From Candidatus Dormiibacterota bacterium (GTDB lineage: Bacteria > Vulcanimicrobiota > Vulcanimicrobiia > Vulcanimicrobiales > Vulcanimicrobiaceae), in NCBI GenBank assembly GCA_035532835.1, contig DATKQG010000045.1, positions 1 through 43,225 on the forward strand: 43,225 bases of DNA, read 5' to 3'. Positions within the stretch are counted from its first letter, which is position 1; each line of letters starts with the position of its first letter. The position numbers were made by a program, and so were the translations under genes. The notes beneath the pieces are model-generated. The model ran no database searches. It was not told the DNA's origin and worked only from the letters and a program-made list of their open reading frames with translations. This document shows positions 33,881 to 42,834 of this stretch, one piece after another.

Positions 33881-34009
33881 CTACCCCCGGGCCCGGCGAT
33901 CGTTCCAGCGTTCGAGTTCGCGCGCGTAGAGCGTCGCACTTCGTTGCTGCAATTTCAGATACGTCTCCGGCGAGATGCGCATCGTCCGCCGCGGTGATGG
34001 AACGTTCAT
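33881..34009 (-). CDS. Possible 42-residue protein coupled to tolC
   Basis: An ATG at 34007-34009 overlaps the TolC stop as ATGA, with GGAGGAGG about 10 bases upstream, and opens a 42-residue frame ending at TAG. The product is basic and helical-looking (RRTMRISPETYLKLQQRSAT, then YARELERWNDRR), without signal peptide or membrane segment. About 30 of 41 third codon positions are G or C, similar to real genes here. The coupling, ribosome site and composition support it. I know no homologue and cannot assign a role. The alternative is chance read-through into the spacer. Confidence 0.45.
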   Translation of the reverse strand: MNVPSPRRTMRISPETYLKLQQRSATLYARELERWNDRRARG

Positions 34010-35745
34010 TTTGGAGCCCCTCCTCCGAGCGTGGAGAGATGTACATCGTTCGCGCCCAGGATCGATCCATCGACTCGCTGCAGTTCGACGACGGCTTTAT
34101 TGAGGGCGGTCTGCGCCGCGAGTTCGCGACCTTGTGCTTGCACGAGTTCGATTTGCCGCTGCAACACAAGGAACGTCGTGGACGCTCCGTTTCGGAATTT
34201 GCGTTGCTCGCTCGCGTAGACTTCGGCCGCGGTCGTGCGCGCTTGGGTTGCGGCATTCAAACGCGCGACCGCCGTTTGATACGCTTGGTATGCGTTGCGG
34301 ACCTCGAAGACGACCCGCTGCTGGATGCCGCGGCCTTGCAGTTGCGCTTGGAGTTCTTGTTCGCGCGCAGCCGCCAGATTCGCGCGGGCCGTCGTATTGC
34401 CGATGGGGAGATCGATCACAACGCCCACGGAGTACGTCGGGAATTTCCCGCTCCAGAGATTGCTATACGATTGCGCGGCGGATCCGACCATATACGGCGG
34501 GGGCGTCGCGGTTCCGAAGGTGCCACCGAGCGGCGAAAGCGCGTTACCGGCATAGCCGTTCGACTGATAGTTCATTTGCAGGTCTGCTTGCGGGAGAGCT
34601 TGATTCTTTGCATAGCGCAGATTGATGTCGGCTTGGCGCTGCGCGTCGGCGATCTGTCGAACTTCCGGGCGATTCTTGAGTGCTGAAGCCAGGAGCGCAT
34701 CGAAGCTCGGGATCTGCGGCGTTTGCAGCACGGGCGACGTCGGCACGAGATTGGCCCGCCAGATCGGATTCGCCGGATCGTCGACGAGCAGCCCCTTGAG
34801 GGTGTTCTGCACGGTTGAGACCTGCTGGAGATCTTCGAATACCCGGTCTTGGTAGGTCGAAACTTGCGTCGACGACTCGACCGCGTCGATCGGAGCGGCT
34901 TGGCCTTGCTTGGCCAATCGTACGTTGCTCGCTTGTTGGGCGACAGCCTGATGAAGCGCCTGTTCGTCGATCGCAACCGTACGCCACGCTGCGACCAAAC
35001 TCCAGTATTCGTTCTCGACGTTCGCGATGGTGGTCGAGGCGTCGGCGAGGGTCTGCGATTCCGATACGTCGGCATTGACCACCGATAGCAGGAGCGCTCG
35101 CTTCGCCGGATTGATCCCGGCGTTCTTGAGCAACGGCTGCGTCAGCGAGACGTTCAACGATGTCGGATAGTATGGATTGAACGCGTTGATATAGGTGTTG
35201 TCGTTCACTTTCGATTGCGAAAGGCTCACGCTATACTGTTGGCCGCTCGGCATCTGGCCTTTCAAACCGCCTTCGACCGTTTGCACGTTTTGCACGATCG
35301 GCTGAAAATCGTTTCCGCCGGCGAAAAACGCATTGGTCGCGGCCGAGGTGGAGTGCTTGACGGACGGTTCGAGCAAGAAGTGGACGTCGAAGGCGCCTTT
35401 GGCAGCCTGAATCTGGTAGGACGCGATCCGCGTGTTCGAGGCGGCAATCGAGAGATCCGGATTCTTGAGCAACGCCATTCCGATCGCATCGGAGAGCGTC
35501 AAACCGACGAACGGTTCTTGGGCCACGCCGACGATGTTCGCCGCGCTCGGTTGCGCTGCAGGGGGGCGATAGCCGCGAGCCACGCTCGGAATACGCGGGA
35601 ACACGGCCGTCGGCTGCGGCGTCGGGACTGCCGCGCGCGCCGGTAGCGGCGGGTGCGTGCCCTGCGCGGCCGCCGCACCGAACGGCATGCTCGCGGCCAT
35701 AGTGGCAGCGGATGCGACGACCAGCGATACGATTCGAGTGTTCAC
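34006..35745 (-). CDS. TolC-family outer-membrane efflux protein
   Basis: This 579-residue protein is the outer-membrane channel of the export system encoded here. It has a signal peptide (about 1-27), a proline-rich stretch (about 28-70, THPPLPARAAVPTPQPTAVF) and two outer-membrane-efflux repeats. The first repeat contains LTLSDAIGMALLKNPDLSIAA and the second PSFDALLASALKNRPEVRQIADAQRQ. The second is followed by long coiled-coil segments and the RKFRNGASTTFLVLQRQIELVQAQ motif. GTG start at 35745 with an AGGAG site. The transporter gene ends eight bases upstream. A TolC-type channel implies two membranes. Confidence 0.93.
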   Translation of the reverse strand: MNTRIVSLVVASAATMAASMPFGAAAAQGTHPPLPARAAVPTPQPTAVFPRIPSVARGYRPPAAQPSAANIVGVAQEPFVGLTLSDAIGMALLKNPDLSIAASNTRIASYQIQAAKGAFDVHFLLEPSVKHSTSAATNAFFAGGNDFQPIVQNVQTVEGGLKGQMPSGQQYSVSLSQSKVNDNTYINAFNPYYPTSLNVSLTQPLLKNAGINPAKRALLLSVVNADVSESQTLADASTTIANVENEYWSLVAAWRTVAIDEQALHQAVAQQASNVRLAKQGQAAPIDAVESSTQVSTYQDRVFEDLQQVSTVQNTLKGLLVDDPANPIWRANLVPTSPVLQTPQIPSFDALLASALKNRPEVRQIADAQRQADINLRYAKNQALPQADLQMNYQSNGYAGNALSPLGGTFGTATPPPYMVGSAAQSYSNLWSGKFPTYSVGVVIDLPIGNTTARANLAAAREQELQAQLQGRGIQQRVVFEVRNAYQAYQTAVARLNAATQARTTAAEVYASEQRKFRNGASTTFLVLQRQIELVQAQGRELAAQTALNKAVVELQRVDGSILGANDVHLSTLGGGAPK

Positions 35746-35753
35746 AGTAACTC

Positions 35754-37289
35754 CTATTCAGCCGGAATGGAACCGCCCAATCGCGGCTTATTGAGTAGCA
35801 AGACGAGTGGAGCGAGAAGGATGGTGATGATCGCGGTAATGCGCGAGGTGTCGGCGTACGATTGCACCTGCGCTTGACCGGCGATCATGCCTTCGAGATT
35901 GGCGAGCGCGGAGGTCGAGTGAGCACCCCCGTTTGCCGCAAGATACGATGCCGTCGCGGGGCTGGCGAGATTGATCGAAGCAGCCAGTTCCGTTTGATGG
36001 ACCGAGACGCCGCGTACCAGGAGCGTCACCAGCACCGCCGTAGCGATGCTGCCGCCGACTTGACGCGAAAGGTTGAAGAACGCCGAGGTTGCGGCTACGT
36101 CTTTATCCGGAACGCCGCCGATGACCGCGATCGAAAGCGGGACGAAGATCTGCGAGAGGCCTATACCGCTGATGACCAGCGATGCGATGAACGTGCCGAA
36201 GTCCGATTGCGGCGTCGTCACGTTCGCGAGCATCCAATTCGAGACCGCCAACAGCACGAAGCCGATGGCCGTGGAGATGCGTGGATCGATCACGCCCCGC
36301 CCCGCGAGTGCGGCGGTGATCGGCGTAAAAATCATCACCGCCGCCGCGCGTACGAGAATCGTCAGGCCGGAGAGCGTTGCCGTAAACCCCAGCGATCCTT
36401 GCAGATATTGCGGTAAGACCAAGATCGAGCCGTAGAGGCTCACGCCGAGCACTCCGCCCAGGATGCTGCCCGCCGCCACCTGTCGCAGACGCAGCACGCG
36501 CAGATCCACCACCGGGATTTTCGAGCGCAGGGTCCACACGACGAATCCGACCAGCGCGATGGCCGCGAGCGCGGTGAAGAGCCGGATGTTCGGATCGCTC
36601 AACCAATCGTAGGTCTGCCCTTGATCCAACACGTACTGCATCGAGCCCAAGCCCGCCGCCAGCAATCCCAAACCGATCCAATCGAGTCTCCGATACGTCG
36701 GCTTGAGCGGATTGCGCAGGTAGAACCAGACCAGTAACGCGGCCGCGATGCCAACCGGAATATTGATGTAAAACGCCCACCGCCAGGTGAGATTATCCGT
36801 AATCCATCCGCCTAGAACCGGCCCCAACGCCGGCCCGACGATAACGCCCATCGCGAAGATGCCCTGCGCCTTACCTTGTTCCTTGATGGTGTAGGTGTCG
36901 CGCAAGATCGCCTGAGCCGTCGAAATCAGCCCGCCGCCGCCGAGTCCTTGCACGATGCGCCAAAACACCAACTGCTCGAACGTTCCGGAGAGTCCGCACA
37001 TGAGCGAGGCGATGGTAAAGATGACGATCGATGCGAAGAAATACTGCCGCCGGCCAAAACGCGCCGCCAGCCATGGCGTGAGCGGAATAACGATAACGTT
37101 GGCGATGATGTACCCGGTTACCACCCAAGCGCCCTGATCGACCGCGACCCCGTAATTGCCTTGAATGTTCGGCAAGGCGACGTTGACGATCGTGGTGTCG
37201 ATAATCTCCAAGAGCGTCGCCGAGATCACGGCGAGGCTCACAATGATCCTGCGCCAGCCGAACTCGACCACGCTTCGTTGTTCCATCAT
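35754..37289 (-). CDS. emrB: EmrB/QacA-type MFS drug exporter (DHA2, 14 TM)
   Basis: This 511-residue proton-driven exporter belongs to the DHA2 family. Recognisable are the TM1 motif TLLEIIDTTIVNVALPNIQG, QGAWVVTGYIIANVIVIPL, motif A-like WLAARFGRRQ, the antiporter motif C GPALGPVLGGWITDNLTW and RWAFYINIPVGI. The 14-helix length is as expected. With the EmrA-type adaptor upstream and TolC downstream it should form a tripartite pump spanning both membranes. The substrate is unknown; homologues export hydrophobic drugs, uncouplers or siderophore-like molecules. The adaptor gene ends 21 bases upstream. Confidence 0.94.
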   Translation of the reverse strand: MMEQRSVVEFGWRRIIVSLAVISATLLEIIDTTIVNVALPNIQGNYGVAVDQGAWVVTGYIIANVIVIPLTPWLAARFGRRQYFFASIVIFTIASLMCGLSGTFEQLVFWRIVQGLGGGGLISTAQAILRDTYTIKEQGKAQGIFAMGVIVGPALGPVLGGWITDNLTWRWAFYINIPVGIAAALLVWFYLRNPLKPTYRRLDWIGLGLLAAGLGSMQYVLDQGQTYDWLSDPNIRLFTALAAIALVGFVVWTLRSKIPVVDLRVLRLRQVAAGSILGGVLGVSLYGSILVLPQYLQGSLGFTATLSGLTILVRAAAVMIFTPITAALAGRGVIDPRISTAIGFVLLAVSNWMLANVTTPQSDFGTFIASLVISGIGLSQIFVPLSIAVIGGVPDKDVAATSAFFNLSRQVGGSIATAVLVTLLVRGVSVHQTELAASINLASPATASYLAANGGAHSTSALANLEGMIAGQAQVQSYADTSRITAIITILLAPLVLLLNKPRLGGSIPAE

Positions 37290-37310: not shown

Positions 37311-38573
37311 CTACGAGCGAACTTTCACGTTGGCTTCGACGCTCATGCCGGGCCGCAACGGCATGCTCGCCTTCGGATCGTCGATCGAAATGCGCACGGG
37401 GATGCGTTGCGTAACCTTCACGAAGTTGCCGGTCGCATTCTGTGCGGGTACGAGCGCGTAGGTATTTTGCGAGGCCGGATTGATCGAAAGCACGTGGCCG
37501 TGGAACGTCGTTCCCTTATAAGCGTCGACCGTAATATCGGCAGGCTGTCCGACGCGCATGTCACCCATCTGCGTTTCTTTGAAATTCGCCGTGACGAAAA
37601 TCTTATTCGCGGGGATCAGCGTCATCAAGGTCATGCCGGCGCTAACCGTCTGGCCGACGTCGGCACTCTTCTCGCCGACAAAACCGTCGATCGGAGAAAC
37701 GATCCGCGTGTAGCCGAGATTGCGCTTGGCAATATCGAGTTGCGCCTTCGCGGCTTCGACCTGGCTCGGGTCGGAGGCTTGGAGCAGCTTGCCTTGCGCG
37801 GTCGTGGCACCGCCCTGGGCTGCGCCGACTTGCGCGACGGTTGCGCCGACGCGTTGCTGTGCGGCGTTGAGATTTGCCTGCGCGACGCTGATGTTGTCGC
37901 GGGCGCTCCGTAATTGCGCCGCCGCTGCGGCCTCTTGCGAGGTCGCGGCATCGAGTTGCGCCCTGGCCATATCGCCGGTTGCCACCAACGATTTGGTGCG
38001 ATTGTAATTAGCGAGGGCTTGCGCGTAGGCGGCCTGCGCTGCGGGCAACTGAGACTGCGAGGCACGGAGTTGCGCCTCGGCCTGCGCGACGCCGGCCTGC
38101 ACGACGGGGACCTGCGCTTGGGCGCTGGCGACGTTGCCTTGCGCTTGGGCGACGCCACCCTGGCCCTGCGTCGTGTTCGTGCGCTGATTGGCCGTCGCGA
38201 GATCGTAGTTCGCTTGCGCTTGCTCGAGTTGGGCCTGCTCGATCTGATTGTCGAGAACGATCAGAACTTGCCCCTTCTTGACGCTATCGTTGGTATCGAC
38301 GTTGATCGCGTCGATTTTCTCGTTAATTTTGCTGGTAACGGCGTACGCATCGCTATCCACGCGAGCGTCGTCGGTGCCCTCGTGCAAGCGCGCGTACATG
38401 AACCATTTGACGCCCCATATGATGAGCAGGATGCCCAGGATGCCCCCGACGATCCCGAAGATGACGCGTTTGCGCGGTCCGGTGCGCTCCGTGGAATCGC
38501 TGGAAGCCACACCCCTGCCGTTGGCTTGCGTGGGCGAACTGGTATGCTCTTGATTTGCCTCGCGCGTGTCCAT
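37311..38573 (-). CDS. emrA: EmrA/HlyD-type membrane fusion protein
   Basis: This 420-residue periplasmic adaptor has a cytosolic tail (1-36), one membrane helix (about 37-57, RVIFGIVGGILGILLIIWG) and the typical ARLHEGTDDARVDSDAYAV start of the beta-barrel. A lipoyl half-motif (DTNDSVKKGQVLIVLDN) leads into a very long Ala/Gln-rich coiled coil (about 110-290). The second lipoyl half (TRIVSPIDGFVGEK) and a C-terminal ITVDAYKGTTFHGHV barrel follow. The extended Gln-Ala repeats (GVAQAQGNVASAQAQ) suggest a long hairpin able to reach TolC. It begins six bases after the TetR gene stop in the same operon. Confidence 0.94.
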   Translation of the reverse strand: MDTREANQEHTSSPTQANGRGVASSDSTERTGPRKRVIFGIVGGILGILLIIWGVKWFMYARLHEGTDDARVDSDAYAVTSKINEKIDAINVDTNDSVKKGQVLIVLDNQIEQAQLEQAQANYDLATANQRTNTTQGQGGVAQAQGNVASAQAQVPVVQAGVAQAEAQLRASQSQLPAAQAAYAQALANYNRTKSLVATGDMARAQLDAATSQEAAAAAQLRSARDNISVAQANLNAAQQRVGATVAQVGAAQGGATTAQGKLLQASDPSQVEAAKAQLDIAKRNLGYTRIVSPIDGFVGEKSADVGQTVSAGMTLMTLIPANKIFVTANFKETQMGDMRVGQPADITVDAYKGTTFHGHVLSINPASQNTYALVPAQNATGNFVKVTQRIPVRISIDDPKASMPLRPGMSVEANVKVRS

Positions 38574-38579
38574 GTGCGT

Positions 38580-39194
38580 TTACTTGCTCCTTACGCCGTT
38601 GAGAAATACATCGATGAAATACTTGATGGCTCGATCCGGATCGGCATACAACGCCATCTCCGGAAATTTTTTCCGCGACATCACGTGCGCGAAGATCATT
38701 CCCATATAAAGTAGCGCCAATTCGCCGGGGTTGCCGACCAGATCGCCGGATGCGACGCGGCCCTGCATATACTCGTTTAACAGCGTGTGAATCGCTTCTT
38801 GCGGCCGCCACGTCGCTTTGGAAAAGATGCTCTGTTCGTAATCGTCCTCAACCAGCGACCAGCGGATCATATCGCGCAGCCGGGTCATGCGTTCGAGCAT
38901 GAGGCTGCCGATGGCAAAGAGATCGCCCTCGAGATCGCCGGGAAGCTGCGAGAGTACGCCGCGCAGTTCGAGCGCGCCACAGTAGTGTTGGGCGGTAGCG
39001 ACGATCAACGCTTCCTTGTTCCCGAAATGCCGGAAGAGCGTGGCTTCGTTCACGCCCGCCGTCTCGGCGATTTCGCGCGTGGTCGCGCCTCGTTTACCCT
39101 TGCGCGCCATAACCTCGCGCGCCGCGGCGAGAATCCGCTCGCGCGTCTCCTCCGGTGCGGTCTTGCCCGAATCGATGCCGTGTTCGTCGATCAT
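38580..39194 (-). CDS. TetR/AcrR-family transcriptional regulator
   Basis: This 204-residue regulator has an N-terminal DNA-binding domain (RERILAAAREVMARKG, then TTREIAETAGVNEATLFRHFG with the helix-turn-helix at about 38-58) and a helical ligand-binding domain. It overlaps the LolA-like gene stop as ATGA and precedes emrA by six bases, so it is part of the export operon it probably represses. The palindromes upstream of the operon at 40166-40183 and 40213-40230 are of the size TetR dimers bind and are its most likely operators. That link is inference. Confidence 0.92.
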   Translation of the reverse strand: MIDEHGIDSGKTAPEETRERILAAAREVMARKGKRGATTREIAETAGVNEATLFRHFGNKEALIVATAQHYCGALELRGVLSQLPGDLEGDLFAIGSLMLERMTRLRDMIRWSLVEDDYEQSIFSKATWRPQEAIHTLLNEYMQGRVASGDLVGNPGELALLYMGMIFAHVMSRKKFPEMALYADPDRAIKYFIDVFLNGVRSK

Positions 39195-39850
39195 GGCTGC
39201 GCGAACACCGCGCCGCTGACCGCGATATTGGTGCGGTACGTGGCGAAATACGAGTCGGCTACGGCACGAACGTGCGGGATGTCGATCGTTGCGTGTTGTG
39301 CCGAGATCACATCGTAACCGCCTTCCTTACGATAGGCTTGCGACATGGCGATGACGCCGCCGCTGGTGTAGTGCCACTCCATACGCACCAGTTCGTAATT
39401 CGAGGGATCGACGAATGCGGTGGTGTGATCGAGAATCGAGCTGTGAATTTTCTTGGTCATCGTCAGCACCAGCATGGGCCGTCCGCCGAGCACGGTCGTG
39501 CCCGAGTAGGTGACGTATTGATCCTTCTGCCAAGCCGCCGGATCGCCGACGTCGTTGAACAGCTTGGAGAAGCCCTTCGCATAGCTCGGGACGCGGTCGA
39601 AAACGACTTCGTAATTATCCGGGCGTTTGAAATAGGACGTTCCGTCGAGCTTGGGAGCCAAGAACGGGAAATTCTGCATGCGAATGTCCACGTGCACGCG
39701 CGCCCGGTACGACTCCAACGATGGGTTGAGCGAGAGCATCCGTTCGATGATCGTCGTCGCGGTTAGGGGTTCCGGCGTTCCGGCACGTACCGATACGCTC
39801 GCCAGCGTTAGGCTTGCGAAGACAACAGCCGCAAAGAAGCCGCGCATCAT
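39191..39850 (-). CDS. Secreted LolA-like (outer-membrane lipoprotein-sorting fold) protein
   Basis: This 219-residue protein has a signal peptide (about 1-23, RGFFAAVVFASLTLASVSVRA) and a predicted all-beta domain. The pattern is an early helix (TTIIERMLSLNPSLESYRAR), then strands with TSYFKRPDNYEVVFDRVP, VLGGRPMLVLTMTKK and a DPSNYELVRMEWHY return. This resembles LolA/LppX/RseB folds that bind lipids or lipoproteins in the periplasm. Being in the pump operon, it might carry or sense an exported lipid-like substrate; that is inference. The ATG overlaps the upstream STAS gene stop, and the stop overlaps the TetR start. Confidence 0.7.
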   Translation of the reverse strand: MMRGFFAAVVFASLTLASVSVRAGTPEPLTATTIIERMLSLNPSLESYRARVHVDIRMQNFPFLAPKLDGTSYFKRPDNYEVVFDRVPSYAKGFSKLFNDVGDPAAWQKDQYVTYSGTTVLGGRPMLVLTMTKKIHSSILDHTTAFVDPSNYELVRMEWHYTSGGVIAMSQAYRKEGGYDVISAQHATIDIPHVRAVADSYFATYRTNIAVSGAVFAQP

Positions 39851-40140
39851 GCTACCGCCTCCTTCGTCGTCATGGGAAAGAGGCGGTCGAGCGCCATCAC
39901 GCCGAGCGTTCGGCGGATTTCCGGTTTGGTAGCATGGAGCGCGAGCTCGATGCCGAGGGTGCGAGCGCGGCGCAAGAGCACGATCAGCCCGCGCACGCCT
40001 TCACTATCGAGGGTGTCGAGTACGTCGAGATCGAGTACGGCCTGGGGCAGCCCATCCTCGAAGGATGCGACGATGGCGGCCTCCATCTCGGGAAGCGCTT
40101 GCGGGTGGTAGGCGATGGGACGAAGTTCCATTGGCCTCAT
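39847..40140 (-). CDS. Small STAS-domain protein
   Basis: The protein has about 97 residues and consists only of a STAS domain: MEAAIVASFEDGLPQAVLDL, the LDTLDSEGVRGLIVLLRRA loop with D45-S46 at the phospho-acceptor position, and a LALHATKPEIRRTLGVMAL strand-helix. Such proteins are anti-sigma antagonists or MlaB-type partners of lipid transporters. The start is uncertain: the ATG at 40138-40140 is used here; 40131 (with TGAGG) and 40158 are alternatives. It is the first gene of the STAS, LolA-like, TetR, pump operon and its stop overlaps the next start as ATGA. No anti-sigma kinase is present nearby. Confidence 0.75.
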   Translation of the reverse strand: MRPMELRPIAYHPQALPEMEAAIVASFEDGLPQAVLDLDVLDTLDSEGVRGLIVLLRRARTLGIELALHATKPEIRRTLGVMALDRLFPMTTKEAVA

Positions 40141-40165
40141 TGTATGAAATAGCATCATTTTTATA

Positions 40166-40230
40166 TGCAAGTAGGTACTTGCACGCAGAGCATACCACAC
40201 CCTTTTTGTGCGTGCAAGTACCCACTTGCA
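40166..40230. promoter_or_regulatory. Paired palindromic operator in divergent promoter region
   Basis: Two 18-bp palindromes of the form TGCAAGT-N4-ACTTGCA lie at 40166-40183 and 40213-40230, centres 47 bp apart. Together with flanking GCACGCA they form a larger inverted repeat: arms 40166-40187 and 40209-40230, 21 of 22 positions complementary (mismatch 40173/40223), with a 21-base spacer. They sit between the minus-strand export operon and the plus-strand hydrolase. TATAAA on the minus strand (40160-40165) could be the -10 box, placing the first palindrome in the promoter spacer, a typical repressor site. A hairpin or repeat-element origin is the alternative. Confidence 0.7.
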
Positions 40231-40275
40231 GCCAGGGATAGCACCGGGGATGCGGGTAAACCGAGCCTCGTGCCG

Positions 40276-41070
40276 ATGCCGACGATGCTCCCTTCCGCAG
40301 AGATGCTCCGCTCCTGGGCGGCGGCCTCGCAGCTCGACGACCTCGCGCTGGTCCTTCAAACCGGCGACGAGTCGCGGCGCATCGATGCCGAACGCCCGCT
40401 CTATCCGGCCAGCATGATCAAGCTCCCCCTGGCGGCGGCCATCCTGTGCGAGGTGGAAGCCGGCCGCCTGCACCTAGACCAGCATATCCGGATCCAGCCT
40501 GGGAACATGACGGCGAACGATGCGCCCTCTCCCCTGGATCCCGGCTATTTCGCGACCTTGGACGAGCTGATTCACCGGGCCATTGCCTACTCGGACAACG
40601 TCGCCACGAACACCCTCTTCGACGTAGTCGGGCGCGACCGGGCCACCAGCATCGCTCGAGAGCGGCTACGCCTCCCCCACACGTCGTTCCGACGCAAGCT
40701 CTCGGGAAGCGACCCGCTCATCCACGATCCACTCTGGAACGGCCTCGATCTCAATACGCACCCTGCGGCCGATGCTGCGCGCCTGCTGAGCGCGATCTCA
40801 CGCGCCGAGGTTCCCGGCTCGGCCCGGCTCCGAAGCGCCCTAGGCGCCCAAATATGGAACGACAAGCTCAGCGCCGGCCTGTCGGCGGGCGATCGCTTCG
40901 AGCACAAGACCGGCGAGACCGACTCGGTCTGTCACGACGGCGGGATTCTCACCACGGCTTCCGGCCTGGAAGTGGTCGTCGTCCTCTATACGGGCGCGCC
41001 GAGCACGGACGAGCAGAGCGCTCGGCTCGCCGCGTTCATGCGTCGCCTGCGCCCGGCGCTCGCGCCGTAG
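40276..41070 (+). CDS. Class A beta-lactamase-like serine hydrolase
   Basis: This 264-residue protein has the penicillin-recognising active-site motifs: S46-x-x-K49 in YPASMIKLPLA, the SDN motif (106-108) in AYSDNVATNTLFD and KTG in EHKTGETDS. The omega-loop region before LNTHPAADAARLL has no glutamate at the place of Glu166, the general base for deacylation in class A enzymes. No signal peptide is visible, so it may be cytosolic unless the start lies elsewhere. It is therefore probably not an ordinary beta-lactamase. Starts at GTG 40270, ATG 40276 or ATG 40285 are all possible, with poor ribosome sites. It diverges from the export operon across the palindromes. Confidence 0.85.
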   Translation: MPTMLPSAEMLRSWAAASQLDDLALVLQTGDESRRIDAERPLYPASMIKLPLAAAILCEVEAGRLHLDQHIRIQPGNMTANDAPSPLDPGYFATLDELIHRAIAYSDNVATNTLFDVVGRDRATSIARERLRLPHTSFRRKLSGSDPLIHDPLWNGLDLNTHPAADAARLLSAISRAEVPGSARLRSALGAQIWNDKLSAGLSAGDRFEHKTGETDSVCHDGGILTTASGLEVVVVLYTGAPSTDEQSARLAAFMRRLRPALAP

Positions 41071-41074
41071 CGGC

Positions 41075-41515
41075 CTAGTTATTGCCGTCCGGGCTCTGCT
41101 CGGGTGCGCTTCCGTTCATGCCGTTCATGCCGTTCATGCCGTTCGATTGGTTCTTCGCGCGGCGCTTGCGCTGATGCATCGAGCCGGCCGCGTGATAACC
41201 CTGCGCCTGGGCCTGGGCCGGGCAGAGGTACTTGCCGTTCTTCGTGCGGCCGTAGTACGGATCGCCCGGCTCGTGGTACGCCTTGCTCCGGAGATTGACC
41301 CAGACCGGCTTAACCGCTCCGCAACCGAGCGTCGCGGGTACGGGCATTGCGGCGCTCTGGGGAAGGGCGGCAACCTCGCGCTGAGCTTCGGTCGTGGCTG
41401 CGGACATCGGCCCGGCAGCCTGCGTGGTCTGCGACGTCTTGCCGCCTCCGCAGGCCGCCAAACCGGCTAACAACAGGCTCGCGAGCAACGCGCTCGCTAT
41501 GGGACGCAGTTTCAT
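41075..41515 (-). CDS. Small lipoprotein with YHxPGDPYYG motif
   Basis: This 146-residue protein has a lipoprotein signal (LLLAGLAACGGG with lipobox LAAC, C22). A spacer leads to a C-terminal module, VWVNLRSKAYHEPGDPYYG followed by RTKNGKYLCPAQAQAQGYHAA. This short Trp/His/Tyr motif recurs at the ends of many secreted bacterial proteins of unknown function. The tail is basic (QRKRRAKNQS) and then Asn-Gly-Met repetitive. The ATG at 41513-41515 has a GGAG site seven bases upstream. It ends four bases from the convergent hydrolase stop. Role unknown. Confidence 0.8.
   Translation of the reverse strand: MKLRPIASALLASLLLAGLAACGGGKTSQTTQAAGPMSAATTEAQREVAALPQSAAMPVPATLGCGAVKPVWVNLRSKAYHEPGDPYYGRTKNGKYLCPAQAQAQGYHAAGSMHQRKRRAKNQSNGMNGMNGMNGSAPEQSPDGNN
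41112..41144. repeat. 9-bp tandem repeat inside the lipoprotein gene
   Basis: CCGTTCATG is repeated about 3.7 times in perfect tandem. It keeps frame and encodes (Asn-Gly-Met) repeats near the C terminus of the lipoprotein. The unit is a multiple of three, so copy-number change would lengthen or shorten the protein without breaking it. Confidence 0.9.
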
Positions 41516-41544
41516 CGGTCGCTCCAATTCGATCGTGCGGAATT

Positions 41545-42834
41545 TTACGGAAGCACCCTTTGCGCGATGCGCGTGAGTTCGGCTCGAGCCCGCACGGACA
41601 GCGGTGAAGGTTCGCCGGTAAAAACCCGGACCCCGCCGACGAACGCGGCTTGCACCCACGCATCCTGCGCGCGATAGACCAGCGCATTCACCGGCGGCGT
41701 CCACGGATCGATGGCATTCGCGTTGAGCACCACGTAATCGGCCGCACATCCGGCAATGAGGTCACCGCAGGTTACGCCCAGCGCTGCGGCACCTTCGCGC
41801 GTACCCATCGCGTAGGCGTCCACGGCGCCGAGTGCGCTCCCGTCGGTGCGCAGAATCTTCTGTAGATACGATGCCGCGCGCATCTCATCGATGAGCGAAG
41901 GCTTGACGTCGGCATCCGTCCCCAACCCGACGCGTACGCCGTACGAGCGCAGCGCCGTGACGTCGCAGATACCGTCACCCAAATACTGATTGGTCATCGG
42001 GTTATGAATCACGGCCGCGCCGCGCTCCCCGAGCAGTCGCCGTTCGTCTTCGCTGATGTAGATCGCGTGGATCGCAATCGTCCGCTCGTCGAGCGCATCG
42101 AGACGATCGAGCAACCCGATCGGGGTGACGCCATGCGCCTGCATCGTCTGCTCGCCTTCGTACGATGCTTCGGCGACGTGTACGTGCATCGTGCAGTTCT
42201 GCGACCGCGCGAAAGCGGCGGCGGCTCGAATCATGCCGGGCGAGGCGGCGTGCAGCGAATGAGGCGCCACGCACACGTTCGCCCACGGATAGCGCTCCTG
42301 CAAATCGAGCGTTCGTTCCGCGGCCAGATCGATGCTCTCGCGAAACTGCGGCGGAGCGTACTCCGCGTCCATCCACGTGCGGGCGAACACGATGCGGATA
42401 CCGGTCTCCTGGGCGGCCAGCAACGCCGCCTCGGCGTGAGCGTTGCCTGCGCCGTTGAGGTAGAAAAATTCCGCCACCGTGGTAATGCCGGCCGCGAGCA
42501 TTTCGGAGAACGCCACCACGAAAATCCAGTGCACGTCGTCGGGCGTGAGGTGCGGCACGACGCGATAGAGCGCTTCGCTGCGCCACTTCGCGAACGTCCA
42601 ATCGTCCGCCCAGCCGCGCAGAAGAATCTGATATGCGTGGCTATGGCCGTTGACGAATCCCGGAACCACTAAGCGATTGGCCGGATACGACCGCGCGGGA
42701 AGGTCGCCCGCCCACGAGCGCACCTCACCGAAATCTCCCGCCGCCGCGATCGACCCGTCCCGAACCACGAATGCGTAGTCTTCGCGCAAGGCCCCGCCGA
42801 CCAGCGCCCGCGCGCAGCGCACGAGTTCGTTCAC
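41545..42834 (-). CDS. Amidohydrolase, probable formimidoylglutamate deiminase (HutF-like)
   Basis: This 429-residue metal-dependent amidohydrolase has HSH metal ligands (64-66) in GFVNGHSHAYQ, a TTVAEFFYLNG strand, APHSLHAASP, HVHVAEASYEGE (metal His), IHAIYISEDE and a GLGTDADVKPSLIDEMR segment with the metal Asp. The GTG start overlaps the hutI stop as GTGA. HutF hydrolyses formiminoglutamate to formylglutamate in histidine degradation, and context plus HSHAYQ and YLGDGI fit it. The GTDAD segment (HutF usually has GSDSH) and the NPMTNQYL loop are closer to the SAH/MTA deaminase or ATZ/TRZ branch, so the substrate is not certain. Confidence 0.82.
   Translation of the reverse strand: MNELVRCARALVGGALREDYAFVVRDGSIAAAGDFGEVRSWAGDLPARSYPANRLVVPGFVNGHSHAYQILLRGWADDWTFAKWRSEALYRVVPHLTPDDVHWIFVVAFSEMLAAGITTVAEFFYLNGAGNAHAEAALLAAQETGIRIVFARTWMDAEYAPPQFRESIDLAAERTLDLQERYPWANVCVAPHSLHAASPGMIRAAAAFARSQNCTMHVHVAEASYEGEQTMQAHGVTPIGLLDRLDALDERTIAIHAIYISEDERRLLGERGAAVIHNPMTNQYLGDGICDVTALRSYGVRVGLGTDADVKPSLIDEMRAASYLQKILRTDGSALGAVDAYAMGTREGAAALGVTCGDLIAGCAADYVVLNANAIDPWTPPVNALVYRAQDAWVQAAFVGGVRVFTGEPSPLSVRARAELTRIAQRVLP

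Follow-up and report, generated by a model that had tools for sequence, protein, structure and literature searches.

The DNA examined in this work, a stretch of 43,225 nucleotides referred to below as the window, carries two palindromic 18-mers of the same form in the gap between an efflux-type operon and a divergent gene. The locus raises the question of which protein reads these sites, and why there are two of them set so close together. Our answer is that both 18-mers are very probably operators of the TetR-family protein encoded in the operon itself, which would repress its own operon by binding on both sides of the promoter. The evidence computed here comprises the conservation of the sites, their exclusive linkage to the TetR gene, the geometry of the promoter and the conservation of the recognition helix. 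The host belongs to the Eremiobacterota-related bacteria, a little-studied group known mostly from metagenomes, and the analysis assigns a regulator, a predicted operator and a predicted promoter to an efflux-type operon in these organisms. An autoregulatory operator pair of this kind would represent ordinary TetR repression, a known type of control; as far as our searches go, it appears to be new for the group.

The paired 18-mers and their surroundings

The features of the locus are as follows.

34006..35745, (-) strand: TolC-type outer-membrane channel (OEP/TolC, PF02321)
35754..37289, (-) strand: EmrB-type DHA2 MFS permease (TIGR00711, E 1e-122)
37311..38573, (-) strand: EmrA-type periplasmic adaptor (HlyD/EmrA, profile match)
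38580..39194, (-) strand: TetR-family repressor, proposed binder of both sites (PF00440, E 1e-16; HTH TTREIAETAGVNEATLFRHF)
39191..39850, (-) strand: LolA-superfamily periplasmic protein (no Pfam hit; predicted fold matches 3buu and 9tp6)
39847..40140, (-) strand: STAS-domain protein, first gene of the operon (PF01740, E 7.5e-9)
40166..40183, (-) strand: predicted inner operator, TGCAAGTACCTACTTGCA in the operon sense, starting at the predicted transcription start
40189..40197, (-) strand: predicted extended -10, TGG-TATGCT (hexamer 40194-40189)
40212..40217, (-) strand: predicted -35 hexamer TTGCAC, inside or adjoining the outer operator, read from the sequence
40213..40230, (-) strand: predicted outer operator, TGCAAGTGGGTACTTGCA in the operon sense, its inner half holding the -35 region
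40270..41070, (+) strand: class A beta-lactamase-like protein (Beta-lactamase2, PF13354, E 3e-35)

The gene names proposed in the first-pass annotation agree with the profile matches (STAS, TetR_N, HlyD/EmrA, EmrB-type MFS, OEP/TolC and Beta-lactamase2) or, for the LolA-like protein, with the predicted structure, and the TetR gene lies on the (-) strand at the coordinates given there. The double palindrome built into a 22-bp inverted repeat, described in the same annotation, is likewise real and correctly placed. The two sites, TGCAAGTAGGTACTTGCA at 40166-40183 and TGCAAGTACCCACTTGCA at 40213-40230, both read TGCAAGT-N4-ACTTGCA, that is, two 7-bp half-sites around a 4-bp centre; they start 47 bp apart, with 29 bp between them edge to edge, and the 22-nt arms at 40166-40187 and 40209-40230 pair at 21 of 22 positions (95% complementary). 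Allowing up to three mismatches, the motif matches the window four times, two of them perfectly, against an average of 0.5 in shuffles of the window. Across orthologous loci it is the 18-mer that is conserved. The GCACGCA extensions, which had been counted as part of the repeat, hold up on one side: the inner site keeps TGC[G/A] before it, whereas the mirror flank of the outer site is not conserved.

Copy number and conservation

A pattern search through the whole 2.89 Mb genome found the pair in the window to be the only copies, even with two mismatches allowed. This bears on the thought, invited by the inverted-repeat form, that the palindromes are a dispersed repeat element or the end of a mobile element. 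A genome with two copies, held at a fixed position relative to one promoter in 33 genera, does not fit such an element, and the copy number practically excludes it; we give it next to no weight. Of the 117 genomes scanned in the class, 47 had exact copies, one or two per genome and all in the window's family, and a control with the reversed pattern matched in one genome. There were no exact copies in the four genomes of the sister family or in the 14 of a third family, where the TetR matches are weak only.

All exact copies examined sit just upstream of the orthologous TetR operon. A TetR ortholog was present in each of the 29 exact-match loci checked, and in the genomes searched for both motif and TetR the exact copies lie on the TetR contig. 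The palindrome upstream of the tetR operon is thus conserved together with this regulator and has no copies at other places in the genome, as expected of a local autorepressor, and the proposal that it is the operator of the operon's own TetR has gained considerably from the comparison.

For the wider comparison, 65 orthologous regions were fetched, and the pair was scored over 66 loci from 39 genera. With degenerate forms of the outer (TGCAAGTNNGTACTTGCA) and inner (TGCAAGTACNNACTTGCA) sites, a consensus derived from the very loci scored, both sites are kept in 52 of the 66 loci and in 33 of the 39 genera; 20 rounds of Markov-resampled controls produced no pair. Of the other 14 loci, L079 has no site that could be found, and the rest have a single site or a diverged one. 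The inner site alone is kept in three genera (g25, g22 and g5) and the outer alone in two (g34 and g15). Most core positions of the sites hold 1-2 bits of information and the bases outside them about 0 bits, at a whole-protein identity among the TetRs that falls to 34-40%, so neutral inheritance cannot explain the conservation. The two halves of each site are not kept equally: the half that faces the promoter is near perfect (mean 6.9 of 7 in the outer site and 6.7 in the inner), and the far half is weaker (5.8 and 6.0), often reading TGCGTGT. The distance from site to TetR gene depends on which gene comes first in the operon, from about 1000 bp with STAS and about 700 bp with LolA to 10-130 bp where TetR itself leads the operon or nearly does; the site therefore moves with the promoter.

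The sister family (L111, L114, L116 and L117) shows a different arrangement, in which a single variant site, TGTAAGYATNTRCTTACA, stands just before TetR and downstream of a perfect TTGACA; one copy ends in CTTGCT. In these loci the beta-lactamase-like gene is codirectional, with TetR directly after it. The variant is possibly a shift in the operator letters, one that could perhaps be related to changes in the HTH.

Promoter geometry and the proposed mechanism

The pair of sites brackets the predicted promoter of the operon. The promoter was predicted by consensus, and as a -35 its TTGCAn is weak. This element comes from the right end of the outer site (TTGCA plus one base), and the +1 is predicted near 40182, which is position 2 of the inner site. 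The outer site thus overlaps the predicted -35 and the inner one the predicted start. Between them lies the extended -10, TGNTANNNT, which matches at all five positions in 37 of the 52 loci with both sites, and at four or more, with a spacer of 17-18 bp, in 47 of the 52, compared with 1.7 in shuffled spacers.

It is in light of this geometry that the spacing of the two sites is best considered. The first-pass annotation took the 47 bp as a sign of looped or helically phased binding, in which the TetR bridges the two sites and so controls both divergent genes. The sites are both strong, divergent genes flank them, and the start-to-start spacing is indeed commonly repeated: 47 bp in 27 of the 52 loci and 48 bp in 14. 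The rest, however, fall within 41-49 bp (over all loci, values of 41, 43, 44, 45, 46, 47, 48 and 49 bp were seen), a range of more than half a helical turn, which counts against a phased loop, and several genera retain one site only. A DNA loop of 47 bp is also sterically costly, and at 4.5 turns the sites face opposite sides of the helix. What does stay nearly constant is the distance from the outer site to the -10 (18-19), and it is the distance from the -10 to the inner site that takes up the slack (1 to 7), as a promoter constraint predicts. The spacing is best explained by promoter geometry, and looped binding, which this part of the annotation had favoured, now seems unlikely.

The position of the inner site also allows a reading at the RNA level. 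The site would make up the first ~18 transcribed bases, in which a 7-bp stem is possible, and the operon mRNA might then carry a 5'-terminal hairpin that affects stability or translation. The substitution pattern argues otherwise: departures from the motif are one-sided (across the 52 loci, 124 one-sided cells, 84 being broken pairs), and of three double changes only one restores a pair. The outer site, moreover, is upstream of the transcript and equally conserved. We regard a role as RNA as very improbable.

With operators of the operon TetR as the preferred reading, we infer its binding, the repression, the release by ligand and the effect on the divergent gene along the following lines. Each 18-mer would probably take one TetR dimer; a model with two dimers per 18-mer was set aside by analogy with MtrR. 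The dimer on the outer site would cover the -35 region and the one on the inner site the transcription start and the first transcribed bases, leaving the extended -10 in between, and bound repressor would exclude RNA polymerase at both ends of the promoter. The 47-bp spacing would be dictated by the promoter and not by a DNA loop. Release would be brought about by a ligand, which is presumably one of the pump's substrates. The outer site being close to the beta-lactamase-like gene, that gene would probably be repressed as well.

The TetR and its recognition helix

The recognition helix of the operon TetR, AGVNEATLFRHF (GVNEATLFRHF), is near invariant. When 84,980 species genomes were searched for the exact pair, seven stretches matched: four belong to this group, one to Lachnospiraceae and two to Actinomycetota. 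The Lachnospiraceae match (L133:100-300) was rejected, as it is a tandem repeat, about 53 bp in size and including TGCAAGTCAAAACTTGCA, with no adjoining TetR. In the two Actinomycetota the same pair, spaced 41-42 bp apart, stands beside a TetR gene, and the motif has no other copies in either genome. Their TetRs carry NEVTLFRRF and NEATLFRRF, and resemble the window TetR in the HTH only (44-55% there).

These matches also speak to the identity of the binder. That it is the operon TetR is something we infer, and the motif could instead be used by another DNA-binding protein, although no particular alternative is indicated. Against such a protein, the motif tracks the TetR through rearrangements and through loss of the STAS, LolA or beta-lactamase gene, and it recurs in Actinomycetota beside TetRs that share the HTH alone; a different binder is, on this evidence, quite improbable. 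We are evenly divided over a broader reading, namely that TetRs with the helix (V/I)NE(A/V)TLFR(H/R)F share the operator TGCAAGT-N4-ACTTGCA across phyla and unrelated ligand domains and pair it around promoters, which would combine a portable specificity code with a promoter-bracketing design. The recurring match of HTH and operator offers a testable rule for predicting the targets of unstudied TetRs. Among the papers listed by literature searches for the half-site together with TetR, none described a match, and a search for two-operator TetR systems found none.

Comparison with known TetR-family systems

In the tet system of Tn10, tetO1 and tetO2 are two operators of one TetR, located in a divergent intergenic region and controlling an exporter. 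On our reading, the window would resemble it in all of these respects. The difference is that TetR and pump are divergent in Tn10, whereas the window repressor is encoded inside the pump operon and its predicted operators bracket one promoter.

The best PDB sequence match to the window TetR is MtrR, the efflux regulator of mtrCDE and rpoH in Neisseria, which binds as one dimer to an 18-bp site of the same 7-N4-7 build, MCRTRCR-N4-YGYAYGK (PMC8053128). The letters of the half-sites differ, however, and MtrR has several genomic targets, whereas the window regulator is apparently local only. Nor is the window protein an MtrR ortholog by sequence: the similarity is confined to the N-terminal HTH region, with a score of 36 bits against the NCBIfam MtrR cut-off of 280.

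Two other TetR-family arrangements are worth mentioning. QacR and CprB place two dimers on one shared operator of 22-28 bp (PMC4150764). The window, too, is predicted to take more than one dimer in its regulatory region, but on two separate 18-mers. A dimer of dimers of the QacR type would be compatible with the conserved TGC[G/A] next to the inner site; the constraint imposed by the start site explains this flank equally. SlmA is a TetR-fold protein whose half-site also starts with ACT, but it differs in function, and its site, GTGAGTACTCAC, has no spacer and occurs at many places on the chromosome (PMC3116907).

The divergent beta-lactamase-like gene

The beta-lactamase-like gene is divergent in 51 loci. 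Its start in the window could be at 40270, 40276 or 40285; we discarded a longer frame from the ATG at 40165, since both operators would then fall within the coding region and since the similarity among relatives begins near 40285. In most loci the start codon is 0-60 bp from the outer site, and in some it is a few bases away or possibly inside it (TTG). The joint control of this gene, suggested in the first-pass annotation, fits that geometry, but no conserved promoter was found for the gene: inspection by eye across the loci gave no consistent -10 in the beta-lactamase direction, and when the spacer was tested on its reverse strand, an extended -10 matched perfectly in one of 52 loci. Any promoter of the gene would probably overlap the operator region, which makes co-repression likely by position, and control by the TetR is plausible.

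The protein itself (40285-41070) has the SxxK (SMIK), SDN and KTG motifs and, by eye, no obvious ExxxN of the Glu166 type. Possibly it is not a true beta-lactamase but a related peptidase or hydrolase.

The operon and its variants

The core order, STAS, LolA-like, TetR, EmrA, (EmrB) and TolC with the divergent beta-lactamase-like gene, is widely kept. Among the 39 genera, TetR is present in 39 (by construction), EmrA in 39, TolC in 38, the beta-lactamase-like gene in 33, the LolA-like gene in 30, EmrB in 26 and STAS in 25. In 13 of the 39 genera, the search used found no EmrB permease between EmrA and TolC. The loci in question (L067, L068, L083, L094-L096, L098, L099, L105 and others) retain the regulator, the adaptor and the outer channel; L105 has an MFS gene with its own TetR after TolC, and L068 a 6-phosphogluconolactonase instead.

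The LolA-like protein has neither a Pfam match nor a sequence-level match in the PDB. Its AlphaFold2 model (pLDDT 90) matches structures of the LolA superfamily, and a LolA-fold carrier encoded with a STAS protein in one efflux operon is a hint of lipid-like cargo. Beyond the beta-lactamase-like gene, the window encodes at 41075-41749 a protein that gives no Pfam hit and has an NGMNGMNGMNG stretch close to its end; in relatives its gene often adjoins the amidohydrolase gene.
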